Both the position numbers and the translations under genes were made by a program. Positions 6,197 through 9,331 of a stretch of DNA of 10,289 bases are shown piece after piece; the first letter of the stretch is position 1; each line of letters opens with the position of its first letter. Origin of the DNA: Desulfuromonadaceae bacterium. Lineage in GTDB: Bacteria > Desulfobacterota > Desulfuromonadia > Desulfuromonadales > Geopsychrobacteraceae. The DNA is taken from contig DAOWKG010000278.1 of the NCBI GenBank assembly GCA_030639985.1, forward strand, positions 1 through 10,289. Reading direction: 5' to 3'. Under the pieces are notes generated by a model. The model was not told the origin of the DNA and made no database searches. It saw nothing but the letters and a program-made list of their open reading frames with translations.

Positions 6197-6225
6197 ATTA
6201 TAGGAGAACTTTATCTACTTGTCGA
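6197..6225 (-). promoter_or_regulatory. Sigma-70-like promoter of the fumarase gene
   Basis: On the minus strand a -35 TCGACA (6225-6220, 5/6 to consensus) is followed by a 17-base spacer and a perfect -10 TATAAT (6202-6197). Transcription would begin near 6190, giving a leader of about 50 bases before the ATG at 6140. The -35 overlaps a 10-bp palindrome, TTGTCGACAA, at 6219-6228. Confidence 0.8.
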
Positions 6226-6285: not shown

Positions 6286-6310
6286 ATACCTGACTAAAAC
6301 AGTTGAAAAT
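6286..6310 (+). promoter_or_regulatory. IscR type 1-like operator, upstream copy
   Basis: Compared with the E. coli type 1 IscR consensus (ATASYYGACTRWWW followed by YAGTCRRSTAT), this 25-base stretch agrees at 22 positions. It has ATACCTGACT at 6286-6295, AAAAC, and AGT at 6301-6303. The mismatches are at 6304 (T for C), 6307 (A for S) and 6308 (A for T). The [2Fe-2S] form of IscR binds this class of site. The box lies upstream of the predicted -35 and adjoins the second copy. Confidence 0.8.
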
Positions 6311-6333
6311 AATTGACAGAAATAGTCGGGTAT
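6309..6333 (+). promoter_or_regulatory. IscR type 1-like operator, promoter-proximal copy
   Basis: This 25-base stretch matches the type 1 IscR consensus at 23 positions. The right half, TAGTCGGGTAT at 6323-6333, is perfect. The two mismatches are A for S at 6312 and A for T at 6318. It is spaced exactly 23 bp from the first copy, overlapping it by 2 bp, and it covers the TTGACA -35 at 6313-6318. A bound repressor here would block RNA polymerase, as expected for autoregulation by the iscR gene downstream. Confidence 0.85.
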
Positions 6334-6341
6334 GATAATTC
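6313..6341 (+). promoter_or_regulatory. Predicted sigma-70 promoter of the cysE-iscR-iscS-iscU operon
   Basis: A perfect -35 TTGACA (6313-6318) is followed after 17 bases by TAATTC (6336-6341), preceded by TG at 6333-6334, which gives an extended -10. An alternative -10, GATAAT at 6334-6339, would leave a 15-base spacer. Transcription would start near 6348, leaving a leader of about 109 bases. The promoter lies within the second IscR box and just upstream of the Fur box. Confidence 0.7.
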
Positions 6342-6362
6342 TGTTCCAAATTAAATTGATAG

Positions 6363-6377
6363 TGATAAAAATTATCA
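6363..6377 (+). promoter_or_regulatory. Fur-like box (7-1-7)
   Basis: TGATAAAAATTATCA matches the 7-1-7 Fur consensus (TGATAAT, any base, ATTATCA) at 13 of the 14 specified positions. It lies about 15-30 bases downstream of the predicted operon start, a position where bound Fur would act as a roadblock or block open-complex formation. TTGATA at 6356-6361 could also be the -35 of a second promoter covered by the box, but no good -10 follows. Confidence 0.7.
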
Positions 6378-6456: not shown

Positions 6457-7164
6457 ATGTTTTCGCAACTCAAGGGAGAATTAAAGGTTGTCTTTGAGCG
6501 TGATCCGGCCGTGCGGAGTGTCTTTGAAATAATTTTTTGTTATCCCGGGTTTCATGTGATGGTTTCCTACCGTTTTTCTCATTGGTTGTGGAATCATAAA
6601 TTTAAATTTATGGCGCGGTTAGTGTCTCATGTCGGTCGGTTTTTGACCGGCATAGAAATACATCCCGGCGCTACCATTGGGCGGGGCTTTTTTATCGACC
6701 ATGGCATGGGTGTCGTGATCGGCGAAACTGCCGAGATTGGTGATAACTGTACGATTTATCATGGCGTAACGTTGGGGGGGACTTCGTGGGCGAAAGAGAA
6801 GCGGCATCCGACTCTGGGTAATAATGTGGTCATAGGTTCCGGGGCAAAAATACTTGGCCCTTTTACCGTTGGTGATGACAGTAAGATTGGTTCAAATTCT
6901 GTGGTGGTTAAAGAGGTTCCGGCAAATGCAACAGTAGTGGGGATTCCCGGGCGGATAGTACTGTCCGGCGAAAAACGGAGTGGGGTTGATCTGCAACACG
7001 ATAAACTTCCTGATCCGGTTGCCAAAGCAGTTGGATGCCTATTTGACCAAATTGGCCGACTTGAGAATCAGATTGAAGCGTTACAGGATAGTCAGGAAAA
7101 ATTGCAGCATAAACTCGCCAATTATGAAAAAAACGATGCTGGTGAGTTGGTAAAAGAGGGGTAA
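6457..7164 (+). CDS. cysE: Serine O-acetyltransferase, short EpsC-type
   Basis: A 235-residue serine acetyltransferase that makes O-acetylserine from serine and acetyl-CoA, the carbon precursor of cysteine. The left-handed beta-helix hexapeptide repeats run from about residue 65 to 168: [62 protein letters not shown]. Aligned by hand with E. coli CysE, the general base is H82 next to D81, and the E. coli dyad residue D143 is E67 here, a common substitution in short enzymes. The long helical N-terminal domain of E. coli CysE (273 residues) is mostly missing. Residues about 194-225 look like a coiled coil. The chain ends in Gly and not in the terminal Ile that docks E. coli CysE onto CysK. AGAGG lies 9 bases before the ATG. 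As first gene of the operon and 5 bases from iscR, it supplies cysteine, the sulfur source for the desulfurase. Confidence 0.95.
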
Positions 7165-7169
7165 ATTTA

Positions 7170-7607
7170 ATGCGTATGTCAACTAAAGCTCAGTATGCGG
7201 TGCGTGCTCTGGTTAGCTTGAATTTGGATAACGGTGGGCTGCCGATATCTATAAAAGTTATTTCTGAGCGGGAAAATATTTCTTTAAATTATCTGGAGCA
7301 GTTGTTTGTTAAATTGCGTCGAGGTGGAATAGTCAACAGTATTAGGGGGCCTGGCGGTGGTTATGTTTTAGCACGACCAGCTGCTGATATCAGGATGGAT
7401 CAAATAGTCGATACGGTTGAAGAAGCAATGATGCCGTTATCGTGCATGAATACTGACGGCAGTTGTGGTTGTGGTACTGCCTGTGCTACGCAACTGGTCT
7501 GGCACGGTTTGGGGCAACAAATTAAAAATTTCCTTACTTCTATAACGTTAGAAGAGTTAACCAATGATTGTCGTCGACAGTTAAAGAATCAAGTAGTAAA
7601 TAGCTAG
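7170..7607 (+). CDS. iscR: Rrf2-family Fe-S-responsive transcription regulator, IscR
   Basis: A 145-residue Rrf2 winged-helix regulator that in E. coli binds a [2Fe-2S] cluster and represses its own isc operon. The N-terminus MRMSTKAQYAVRAL, the helix ISLNYLEQLFVKLRRGGIV (37-55) and the wing SIRGPGGGY (57-65) are typical. E43 is present, the residue that lets E. coli IscR tell site classes apart. The cluster loop has C92, C99, C101 and C105. By alignment C92, C99 and C105 stand for E. coli C92, C98 and C104, while E. coli H107 is Q108 here. The gene starts 5 bases after the cysE stop, with AGAGGGG spanning the end of cysE. It is shorter than E. coli IscR (162), lacking the C-terminal tail. 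Two IscR-type operators in the operon promoter support the assignment and autoregulation. Confidence 0.94.
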   Translation: MRMSTKAQYAVRALVSLNLDNGGLPISIKVISERENISLNYLEQLFVKLRRGGIVNSIRGPGGGYVLARPAADIRMDQIVDTVEEAMMPLSCMNTDGSCGCGTACATQLVWHGLGQQIKNFLTSITLEELTNDCRRQLKNQVVNS

Positions 7608-7655: not shown

Positions 7656-8885
7656 GTGGAAAAAATTTACATGGACAACAACGCTACAACAGCGGTCAAA
7701 TCTGAAGTTCTTGATGCAATGTTGCCCTATTTTAAAGAGCAATTTGGTAATCCTTCCAGTGTCCATTGGGCTGGGCAAATGGTTGGTGGTGCTATTGATA
7801 CCGCCCGTGAACAGGTGGCAAAACTACTTAATTGTTCAGCTGCTGAAGTTATCTTTCTTTCTTGTGGGAGTGAAGGTGATAATCACGCCATTAAGGGAAC
7901 TGCCGATGCGTTAAAGAGTAAAGGTAATCACATTATAACTACTTCAGTTGAGCATCCGGCGGTATTGGAGACTTGTGAAGCATTAGAAAAAGATGGCTTT
8001 GAGGTTACCTATCTCAAGGTCGATAAAGATGGCATGCTTGATCTTACTGAACTTGAAGCGGCTATCACCGATAAAACGATTTTGATTTCGGTTATGTGGG
8101 CCAACAATGAAACTGGTAATATCTATCCGATCGAAGAGATTGGTAAAATAGCTAAAAAGCATAAAGTGCGATTTCATACCGATGCAGTGCAAGCTGCTGG
8201 TAAAATTCCAATCGATGTCCGTAAAGCCAATGTCGATATGGCGGTAATTTCGGGGCACAAAATCGGCGCTCCCAAGGGTGTCGGTGCCATGTATTTACGT
8301 CGTGGCACCAAAATTTCACGGTTTATGCATGGCGGCCATCAAGAGCGTTTCCGTCGTGCCGGTACCCACAATGTCCCGGGGATTGTCGGTTTGGGTGTCG
8401 CTTGTGAGCTGGCGCAGCAAAATATGGAACACGATTATGCTTATGTGCGTAACTTGCGGGATCGGTTGGAACAGGGGATTTTAACTACTATCCCCGAGGT
8501 TAAATTAAATGGTCATCCCGATGCCGATTTGCGCTTGCCGAATACATTGAATGTAAGTTTTAACTATATTGAGGGCGAGTCAATATTGCTCTTTTTTGAT
8601 ATGAAAGGGATTGCTGCTTCTTCCGGTTCGGCTTGTTCTTCCGGCTCCCTGGAACCTTCCCATGTTATGGGGGCAATGGGTGTCGATATTGTTCTGGCAC
8701 ACTCGAGTACCAGATTTAGTCTTGGTGCTGATAATACTGTGGAAGAAGTAGATTTTATCCTTCAGGAACTGCCCTTGATTGTCCAACGGTTGCGGGATAT
8801 GAGCCCACTATACCAGCGTGATGAGCCGACCCCGTTGTCGTGTGATGAGTGTCGTATGGTAACCAAGATTTGTAACCCAAAATAA
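7656..8885 (+). CDS. iscS: Cysteine desulfurase, NifS/IscS type (GTG start)
   Basis: A 409-residue PLP enzyme that converts cysteine to alanine and passes the sulfur as persulfide to IscU, MnmA and other acceptors. The N-terminus has YMDNNATT. H100 in SVEH, D176 and Q179 in HTDAVQAAG, and K202 in SGHKIGAPKG are the expected cofactor-binding residues, K202 being the Schiff-base lysine. C327 in SSGSACSSG is the persulfide cysteine. Codons begin at a GTG 5 bases after CCGGAGGA, a strong ribosome site. The alternative ATG at 7671 would remove YM and start within the conserved DNNAT stretch. The tail holds C396, C399 and C406 (CDEC, then C six residues on), which the active site does not require. 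The gene follows iscR by 48 bases and precedes iscU by 18, so co-translation is likely. NifS and IscS group names overlap for this clade. Confidence 0.96.
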   Translation: MEKIYMDNNATTAVKSEVLDAMLPYFKEQFGNPSSVHWAGQMVGGAIDTAREQVAKLLNCSAAEVIFLSCGSEGDNHAIKGTADALKSKGNHIITTSVEHPAVLETCEALEKDGFEVTYLKVDKDGMLDLTELEAAITDKTILISVMWANNETGNIYPIEEIGKIAKKHKVRFHTDAVQAAGKIPIDVRKANVDMAVISGHKIGAPKGVGAMYLRRGTKISRFMHGGHQERFRRAGTHNVPGIVGLGVACELAQQNMEHDYAYVRNLRDRLEQGILTTIPEVKLNGHPDADLRLPNTLNVSFNYIEGESILLFFDMKGIAASSGSACSSGSLEPSHVMGAMGVDIVLAHSSTRFSLGADNTVEEVDFILQELPLIVQRLRDMSPLYQRDEPTPLSCDECRMVTKICNPK

Positions 8886-8903: not shown

Positions 8904-9272
8904 ATGTATACAGAAAAAGTAATGGATCACTTTTCCAACCCCCGTAATGTTGGTGAAGTTGAAAATGCAAATGGTGTTGGTGAAGTAGGTAATGCTTCCT
9001 GTGGCGATATTATGCGCATTTCACTTCAGGTAGAAGGTGAAGTAATTAAAGACGTCAAATTTAAAACATTTGGTTGTGGTGCTGCTATTGCAACGTCTTC
9101 TATGGTCACCGAAATGGCAATTGGAAAAACTATTGATGAGGCTTTGATCTTGACGAACAATGCGGTCGCCGAGGCTTTGGATGGTTTACCTGCGGCTAAA
9201 ATGCACTGTTCAAACTTAGCTGCTGATGCTCTCCATGAGGCGATAAAAAATTATAAAGAACAGCTACATTGA
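8904..9272 (+). CDS. iscU: Fe-S cluster assembly scaffold, IscU/NifU N-terminal type
   Basis: A 122-residue scaffold on which [2Fe-2S] clusters are built from desulfurase sulfur before transfer to apoproteins. All ligands of the fold are present: C33 and D35 in NASCGD, C58 in FGCGAA, H101 and C102 in KMHCSNLA. The length equals a stand-alone IscU domain, with no NifU-type ferredoxin or C-terminal thioredoxin-like domains. The loop before the last cysteine reads LPAAK (95-99), where IscU proteins served by the HscA chaperone have LPPVK. No hscA, hscB or fdx gene directly follows. AGGAGA lies 5 bases before the ATG. The neighbours place it in the same transcript as the desulfurase. Confidence 0.95.
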   Translation: MYTEKVMDHFSNPRNVGEVENANGVGEVGNASCGDIMRISLQVEGEVIKDVKFKTFGCGAAIATSSMVTEMAIGKTIDEALILTNNAVAEALDGLPAAKMHCSNLAADALHEAIKNYKEQLH

Positions 9273-9303
9273 CTATTAAAGTTAGAATTTAAATAATTAA
9301 TTG

Positions 9304-9331
9304 AGGGCTCTGCTTTGGTGGAGCCCTTTTT
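9304..9331 (+). terminator. Terminator-like hairpin between iscU and mnmA
   Basis: AGGGCTC at 9304-9310 pairs with GAGCCCT at 9321-9327, leaving a 10-base loop, and is followed by TTTTA. The stem is only 7 bp, so termination may be partial. It begins 31 bases after the iscU stop and ends 18 bases before the mnmA start. No room remains for a new promoter after it, so mnmA expression would depend on readthrough or on a promoter within or before the hairpin. Confidence 0.8.

Follow-up and report, generated by a model that had tools for sequence, protein, structure and literature searches.

A predicted type 1 IscR operator ahead of a cysE-led iron-sulfur assembly operon in Desulfuromonadales

The window, a 10,289-nucleotide stretch of a Desulfuromonadaceae bacterium assembly (GCA_030639985.1, contig DAOWKG010000278.1), contains an operon encoding a serine O-acetyltransferase (CysE), an IscR-like Rrf2 regulator, a cysteine desulfurase and a U-type scaffold protein. 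Two sites resembling type 1 IscR operators lie upstream of cysE, the second overlapping a candidate promoter, and a fumarase gene is encoded divergently (Table 1). The nearest named loci belong to Desulfuromusa sp. metagenome assemblies and to other Desulfuromonadales including Malonomonas rubra.

Table 1. Features of the cysE-iscR locus in window coordinates.
Feature	Position	Strand	Remarks
fumA (class I fumarase), divergent	upstream of cysE	-	
fumA promoter-like site, TCGACA-17-TATAAT	6197..6225	-	11/12 matches
Box 1, second type 1-like site, ATACCTGACTAAAACAGTTGAAAAT	6286..6310	+	22/25 vs type 1 consensus; left half 6286-6295
Box 2, predicted type 1 IscR operator, promoter-proximal, ATAATTGACAGAAATAGTCGGGTAT	6309..6333	+	23/25 vs type 1 consensus
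-35 hexamer, TTGACA	6313..6318	+	inside box 2
Extended -10, TG-A-TAATTC	6333..6341	+	17 bp after -35; adjoins box 2
15-bp dyad, TGATAAAAATTATCA	6363..6377	+	just downstream of the inferred start
cysE, serine O-acetyltransferase	6457..7164	+	TIGR01172, 256.5 bits (cut-off 210.65)
iscR-like Rrf2 regulator	7170..7607	+	above TIGR00738 cut-off, below TIGR02010 cut-off; C92, C99, C101, C105, Q108
Cysteine desulfurase, NifS/IscS type	7656..8885	+	TIGR03402, 585.5 bits (cut-off 530.75)
Scaffold, NifU_clost/IscU type	8904..9272	+	TIGR03419, 213.3 bits (cut-off 187.9)
Terminator-like hairpin, iscU-mnmA gap	9303..9328	+	11 pairs, then T-run
mnmA (start of gene)	after scaffold gene	+	

The gene content found in the assembly resembles that of a minimal Fe-S assembly system with a single cysE. 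Scores exceed the curated cut-offs of NifS for the desulfurase and of NifU_clost for the scaffold, and stay below those of IscS and IscU. Neither the SufBD core nor an IscA-type protein (PF01521) was found in the window's assembly, which is about 90% complete, so that either absence could be an assembly gap; any SufBD was detected in only one of 21 genomes. The name isc operon, used in the original prediction, is loose, given the NifS/NifU_clost assignment and the lack of SufBD or IscA matches. A desulfurase and a U-type scaffold without SUF or an A-type carrier is the content expected of a minimal iron-sulfur (MIS) system, and the 90%-complete assembly shows this content, with the same reservation about gaps. 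A search of the assembly at E 1e-20 gave no cysE other than that of the operon. At this threshold or better CysE occurs in 20 of the 21 genomes and in exactly one copy in 19 of the 20, the window's assembly included; G008 carries a second, distant match. Six of seven weak IscA/HesB-family matches contain one in-frame TGA (G040:C20:17204, G003:C266:480, G012:C180:1377, G008:C21:12041, G006:C14:4141 and G001:C18:20422), and we take these six to be probable HesB-like selenoproteins. Terminator-like sites such as the one preceding mnmA are about as frequent by chance, with three found in the scanned region and 2.7 expected in shuffles.

Both boxes are genuine matches to the type 1 consensus and are unique in the assembly. 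Scored against ATASYYGACTRWWWYAGTCRRSTAT, the type 1 IscR consensus, they reach the 22/25 and 23/25 originally counted by hand, and their starts are 23 bp apart with an overlap of 2 bp, again as predicted. They are the sole places within three mismatches of the consensus in the 2,061,131 bases of the assembly (about 90% complete), and the reversed pattern gave none at the same limit. When the window was shuffled 1000 times with its dinucleotides preserved, sites of at least 20/25 occurred at a mean of 0.041 per shuffled window, no site reached 22/25 and no shuffle contained two sites of 20 or more within 30 bp. The assembly-wide scan and the shuffles together rule out a chance origin, and the existence of both matches in the window is confirmed.

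Almost all loci that we examined in the order have the operator before a cysE-led operon. We searched 60 genomes, the window's own included, and identified a regulator orthologue in 56; in G010, G013, G029 and G051 the match is absent or merely distant. Loci L089-L102, picked largely for carrying pattern hits, are excluded from the 56-locus counts. The gene preceding iscR is cysE in all 56 orthologous loci. A box 2 of at least 20/25, with TTGA in register and no more than 200 bases from cysE, is present in 55 of them, the sole exception (L088) scoring 19/25. A class-wide search of 58 genomes added 17 loci, all with cysE upstream of iscR on the same strand and 15 with a box of at least 20/25 before cysE (17/25 in L273 and 19/25 in L277). 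Taking both sets together, 70 of 73 cysE-iscR operons have a box 2 of at least 20/25; the three that fall short count against our preferred explanation. Seven of the 17 further loci come from outside the order and six of these possess the box. Outside the order, 21 of the 28 class members searched have no regulator orthologue at E 1e-30, and the arrangement is therefore a rule of the order and not of the whole class.

The promoter elements keep a constant register with box 2. The -35 hexamer lies inside the box, as originally proposed, and reads TTGACA in 49 of the 56 loci, TTGACG in six and TTGATT in one (TTGAC[AG] in 55/56). A TG at the end of box 2, followed by one base and TA at 17-bp spacing (TGnTA), is present in 56/56 loci. 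This invariance supports reading the promoter as TTGACA-17-TG-A-TAATTC, with a likely start near 6348 and box 2 then spanning about -39 to -15. The hexamer TAATTC is a poor -10 element, which counts against our preferred explanation. The promoter of the window is not listed by a sigma-70 promoter scan because that scan demands T at position 6 of the second hexamer. With a consensus match above chance and with this conservation, box 2 qualifies as a predicted type 1 IscR operator and is strongly supported as such on comparative grounds. The original prediction that a cysE-led operon has a conserved type 1 operator across its promoter depended on at least one box being conserved in close relatives, and box 2 bears it out.

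Box 1 is conserved in part only and mostly within the window's family. Among the 55 loci that could be tested (L005 has too little upstream DNA), 28 contain a site of at least 18/25 at a spacing of 22-27 from box 2, while the six following 6-bp bins contain 0, 0, 0, 0, 0 and 1 such sites. This excess shows that an upstream element is real. By the same threshold box 1 is absent from 27/55 loci, and by hand count 25 of the 28 sites fall in the window's family (25/33 testable loci there, 3/22 outside). Within the 28 loci the left half averages 9.68/10 matches and the right half 5.14/10, and the spacing to box 2 is 23 in 13, 24 in five, 25 in nine and 26 in one. The scan of relatives for a tandem pair at 23-bp spacing, proposed with the original prediction, thus recovers box 2 in 55 of 56 loci and of box 1 mainly the left half, at a spacing of 23, 24, 25 or 26. 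Box 1 is accordingly less well supported than had been claimed, with its left half alone conserved and nearly confined to one family. Two sites stand 25 bp apart in E. coli and in 14 other gammaproteobacterial iscR loci, so that 23 bp is a locally shortened version of a more widespread layout, and the conserved unit consists of a complete operator with a half-site upstream of it.

These patterns bear on how the upstream element could act. Two equivalent operators at an invariable distance of 23 bp could cooperate, neither being dispensable, as the original prediction implied. The 22/25 score of box 1 in the window, a spacing of 23 in 11/11 testable loci of its genus, the clustering of sites at spacing 22-27 and the occurrence of pairs in E. 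coli and other gammaproteobacterial iscR promoters are all consistent with this. Against it stand the degenerate right half, the variable spacing in relatives and the loci that have no box 1. We consider strict cooperativity rather unlikely, and the claim that a pair at exactly 23 bp is the conserved unit is not sustained. The right half is often TTGAAAAT-like, AT-rich and directly upstream of the -35, which would suit a site that acts mainly as a promoter UP element and retains no more than half of a former operator. The left half ATACCTGACT is an operator half, however, and is near invariant (identical in 22/28 loci) even where the spacing shifts, making an UP element the less probable account of box 1. 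In the window itself the right half matches at 7/10 and box 1 has the top score among the 11 testable genus loci.

The regulator departs from E. coli IscR in its ligand set. It exceeds the Rrf2 superfamily cut-off (TIGR00738, 129.7 vs 73.3 bits) and falls below that of the IscR equivalog (TIGR02010, 138.2 vs 207.55 bits), the latter counting against our preferred explanation. Residues could be read in 54 of the 56 orthologues, two being cut short by a contig end. All 54 possess the three cluster cysteines C92, C99 and C105, and 53 an extra cysteine, C101. The fourth ligand of E. coli IscR is a histidine two residues after the third cysteine. The window regulator has Q108 at this place, and this lack of the histidine also counts against our preferred explanation. 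Across the 54 orthologues the position is split evenly between Gln and His (26 each), with Arg in the other two. The operator is thus kept while the fourth-ligand residue varies, in agreement with the original view that it is conserved despite an altered ligand set. The equivalent of E. coli Glu43 (E43) and its neighbour Gln44 are invariant in 10 aligned regulators; Glu43 serves in type 1/type 2 discrimination. In eight iscR-led deltaproteobacterial operons (L122 and L126-L132) the boxes are of ATACTTGACA type and the regulators have Gln at the fourth-ligand place and no extra cysteine. With Gln occurring in such relatives without the extra cysteine, sequence alone does not identify the fourth ligand.

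The assembly encodes two further Rrf2 proteins, at 41% and 27% identity to the regulator. The main binder of the boxes could be such a paralogue and not the encoded regulator, and a weak site of 18/25 does precede the gene of one of the two. We regard this as highly unlikely, as box 2 tracks the cysE-iscR operon across the loci and E. coli IscR is stated to autoregulate through a type 1 site (PMC9973013, accessible text). The paralogue with 41% identity is encoded at L200 (G000:C119, 2040-2513), with the type 1-like site about 65 bases before the gene, and is followed by a gene that by eye resembles an ATP-dependent sulfurtransferase. Least probable of all is a main role for the boxes in controlling fumA, an Fe-S enzyme gene that is divergent in the window and in many family members, given that fumA has a promoter-like site to itself some 60 bp from the boxes and that box 2 is kept where the fetched flank contains no fumA (e.g. 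L021, L023, L024, L027 and L069, with box 1 kept in L021, L023 and L024). Promoter-like sites number five in the scanned region vs 7.5 expected in shuffles.

We favor, with a probability of about 0.83, IscR-type autorepression through box 2 that would also gate O-acetylserine synthesis, with box 1 as an auxiliary element. Box 2 would be the operator of the IscR-type repressor encoded by the second gene of the operon. When clusters are plentiful, a cluster-loaded dimer would occupy box 2, masking the -35 along with the beginning of the extended -10, and cysE-iscR-nifS-nifU would be off. When clusters are short, through lack of iron, sulfur or cysteine or through oxidation, the regulator without its cluster would leave the type 1 site, and the assembly machinery and O-acetylserine synthesis would rise together. 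In the window's family a second dimer may bind box 1 as an auxiliary site that is only half conserved, its right side being degenerate in most members and unusually complete here by chance or recent selection. Fe-S status would then probably set Fe-S assembly and an enzyme of cysteine synthesis at once. With a single cysE and no SufBD or IscA found, and provided that these absences are not gaps, the cell would by these routes obtain O-acetylserine and Fe-S clusters from this operon alone, so that one operator would set both.

Autorepression through box 2 would place the mechanism known from E. coli in a new context, a reading that is well supported in silico. The E. coli iscRSUA promoter likewise has two type 1 boxes (24/25 and 22/25) before a regulator-encoding operon, with TTGAC[C/A] in the downstream box and TG at the same place after it. 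The resemblance noted in the original prediction holds for this two-box architecture and not for the spacing, which is 25 in E. coli and 23 in the window. Unlike the E. coli operon, which starts with iscR and includes iscA, that of the window starts with cysE and has only the desulfurase and scaffold genes for assembly; the residue at the fourth-ligand place is His there and Gln here. The E. coli operon also includes hscBA and fdx.

The adjacency of cysE and iscR is not special to the window's group; what appears distinctive is the operator ahead of cysE. Pseudomonas and Azotobacter have a similar cysE-iscR order. cysE directly precedes iscR in 42 of 80 named loci, comprising 13 of halomonad/Hahella type, seven alphaproteobacterial and 22 others, for which we scanned the region before cysE and the cysE-iscR gap. 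The halomonad/Hahella loci (L141, L144, L145, L151, L154, L155, L156, L160, L161, L164, L172, L174 and L179; L151 is titled only Proteobacteria) share the cysE-iscR-iscS order, yet in 12/13 the 53-146 bp that separate cysE from iscR contain the top type 1 match, L154 showing a tie. Matches before cysE reach merely 13-17/25 in these loci, so cysE is probably outside operator control there. The alphaproteobacterial locus L176 has a 23/25 box before cysE, as here, and the coupling is therefore not unique to the window's group; the best matches before cysE in the other six alphaproteobacterial loci are 15-18/25. Of the 22 remaining loci, 21 are titled Desulfuromonadales, Deltaproteobacteria or Thermodesulfobacteriota and one Chloroflexi. 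A box of at least 19/25 precedes cysE in 20 of the 22, the other two (L111 and L113) having 33 and 0 bases upstream. By contrast, the eight iscR-led deltaproteobacterial loci have their 21-22/25 box before iscR, as found by scanning before the first gene.

Other Rrf2-linked assembly systems share parts of this organization. The MIS system with a linked Rrf2 gene that is mentioned in PMC9973013 resembles the window in pairing a desulfurase and a U-type scaffold with an Rrf2 regulator, and differs in that the main text, as far as accessible, does not include cysE. The Clostridium perfringens cluster cpe1786-1783 has the same Rrf2-iscS-iscU-trmU order and, according to the accessible text of PMC2940859, is upregulated 3 to 6-fold in cysteine limitation. 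There, unlike in the window, cysE lies apart from the Fe-S operon, with cysK under a T-box (PMC2940859). Myxococcus xanthus RisR is likewise a deltaproteobacterial Rrf2 repressor of Fe-S assembly genes, but the accessible text of PMC9973013 describes a dedicated binding motif and places RisR nearer to NsrR than to IscR.

If the proposed control is correct, cysteine precursor supply and Fe-S assembly would in these anaerobes be tied into a single feedback unit that relies on one sensor and one promoter. More tentatively, across Desulfuromonadales and kin a single CysE may be under Fe-S feedback, with an IscR of changed ligands (Cys4, or Cys3 plus Gln) as a joint sensor of clusters and cysteine, the fourth ligand being free and the operator fixed. 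The natural Q/H/R series with the same operator would offer a way to ask which ligand set IscR needs for type 1 DNA. It also bears on whether MIS-linked Rrf2 proteins are Fe-S sensors, a question raised in PMC9973013, whose accessible text states that Fe-S binding by Rrf2 groups near SUF or MIS genes awaits validation. Judged by titles and the opening lines of abstracts, no paper listed in our literature search describes regulation of cysE by IscR in Geobacter or Desulfuromonas, and the accessible parts of PMC7726332, PMC545781, PMC1274295, PMC3840689 and PMC4521836 (the last on Pseudomonas IscR) contain none; an earlier prediction may exist in subscription papers or RegPrecise, which lie beyond the scope of that search.

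Further elements surround the promoter. The dyad downstream of the inferred start may be bound by Fur or another regulator: an alignment of 16 near relatives, counting the window, shows TGnnAnnnnnTnnCA conserved at the position, while the inner bases drift. It has one mismatch to the E. coli Fur core, with three such places in the assembly and none for the reversed control. We did not adopt a Fur-box assignment, because the versions in relatives drift and because the deltaproteobacterial Fur box is given as WTGAAAATNATTTTCAW in the accessible part of PMC545781. No Rfam match to a leader RNA element exceeded the gathering score within the window, and comparing the promoter region with plasmid sequences by similarity gave no match. 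The genus members L004, L005 and L007 may have a third type 1-like site, of 20-21/25, at about -67 to -62 from cysE; the window lacks it. The thiol peroxidase gene tpx, named by eye, is a possible second IscR target. It was not found in the window's assembly (about 90% complete). Family-wide, 9/31 tpx loci reach 20/25, and in 7/10 of the tpx genes found in the genus (L204, L206, L207, L208, L211, L212 and L213) a type 1-like dyad of 21-24/25 lies at -54 to -58.
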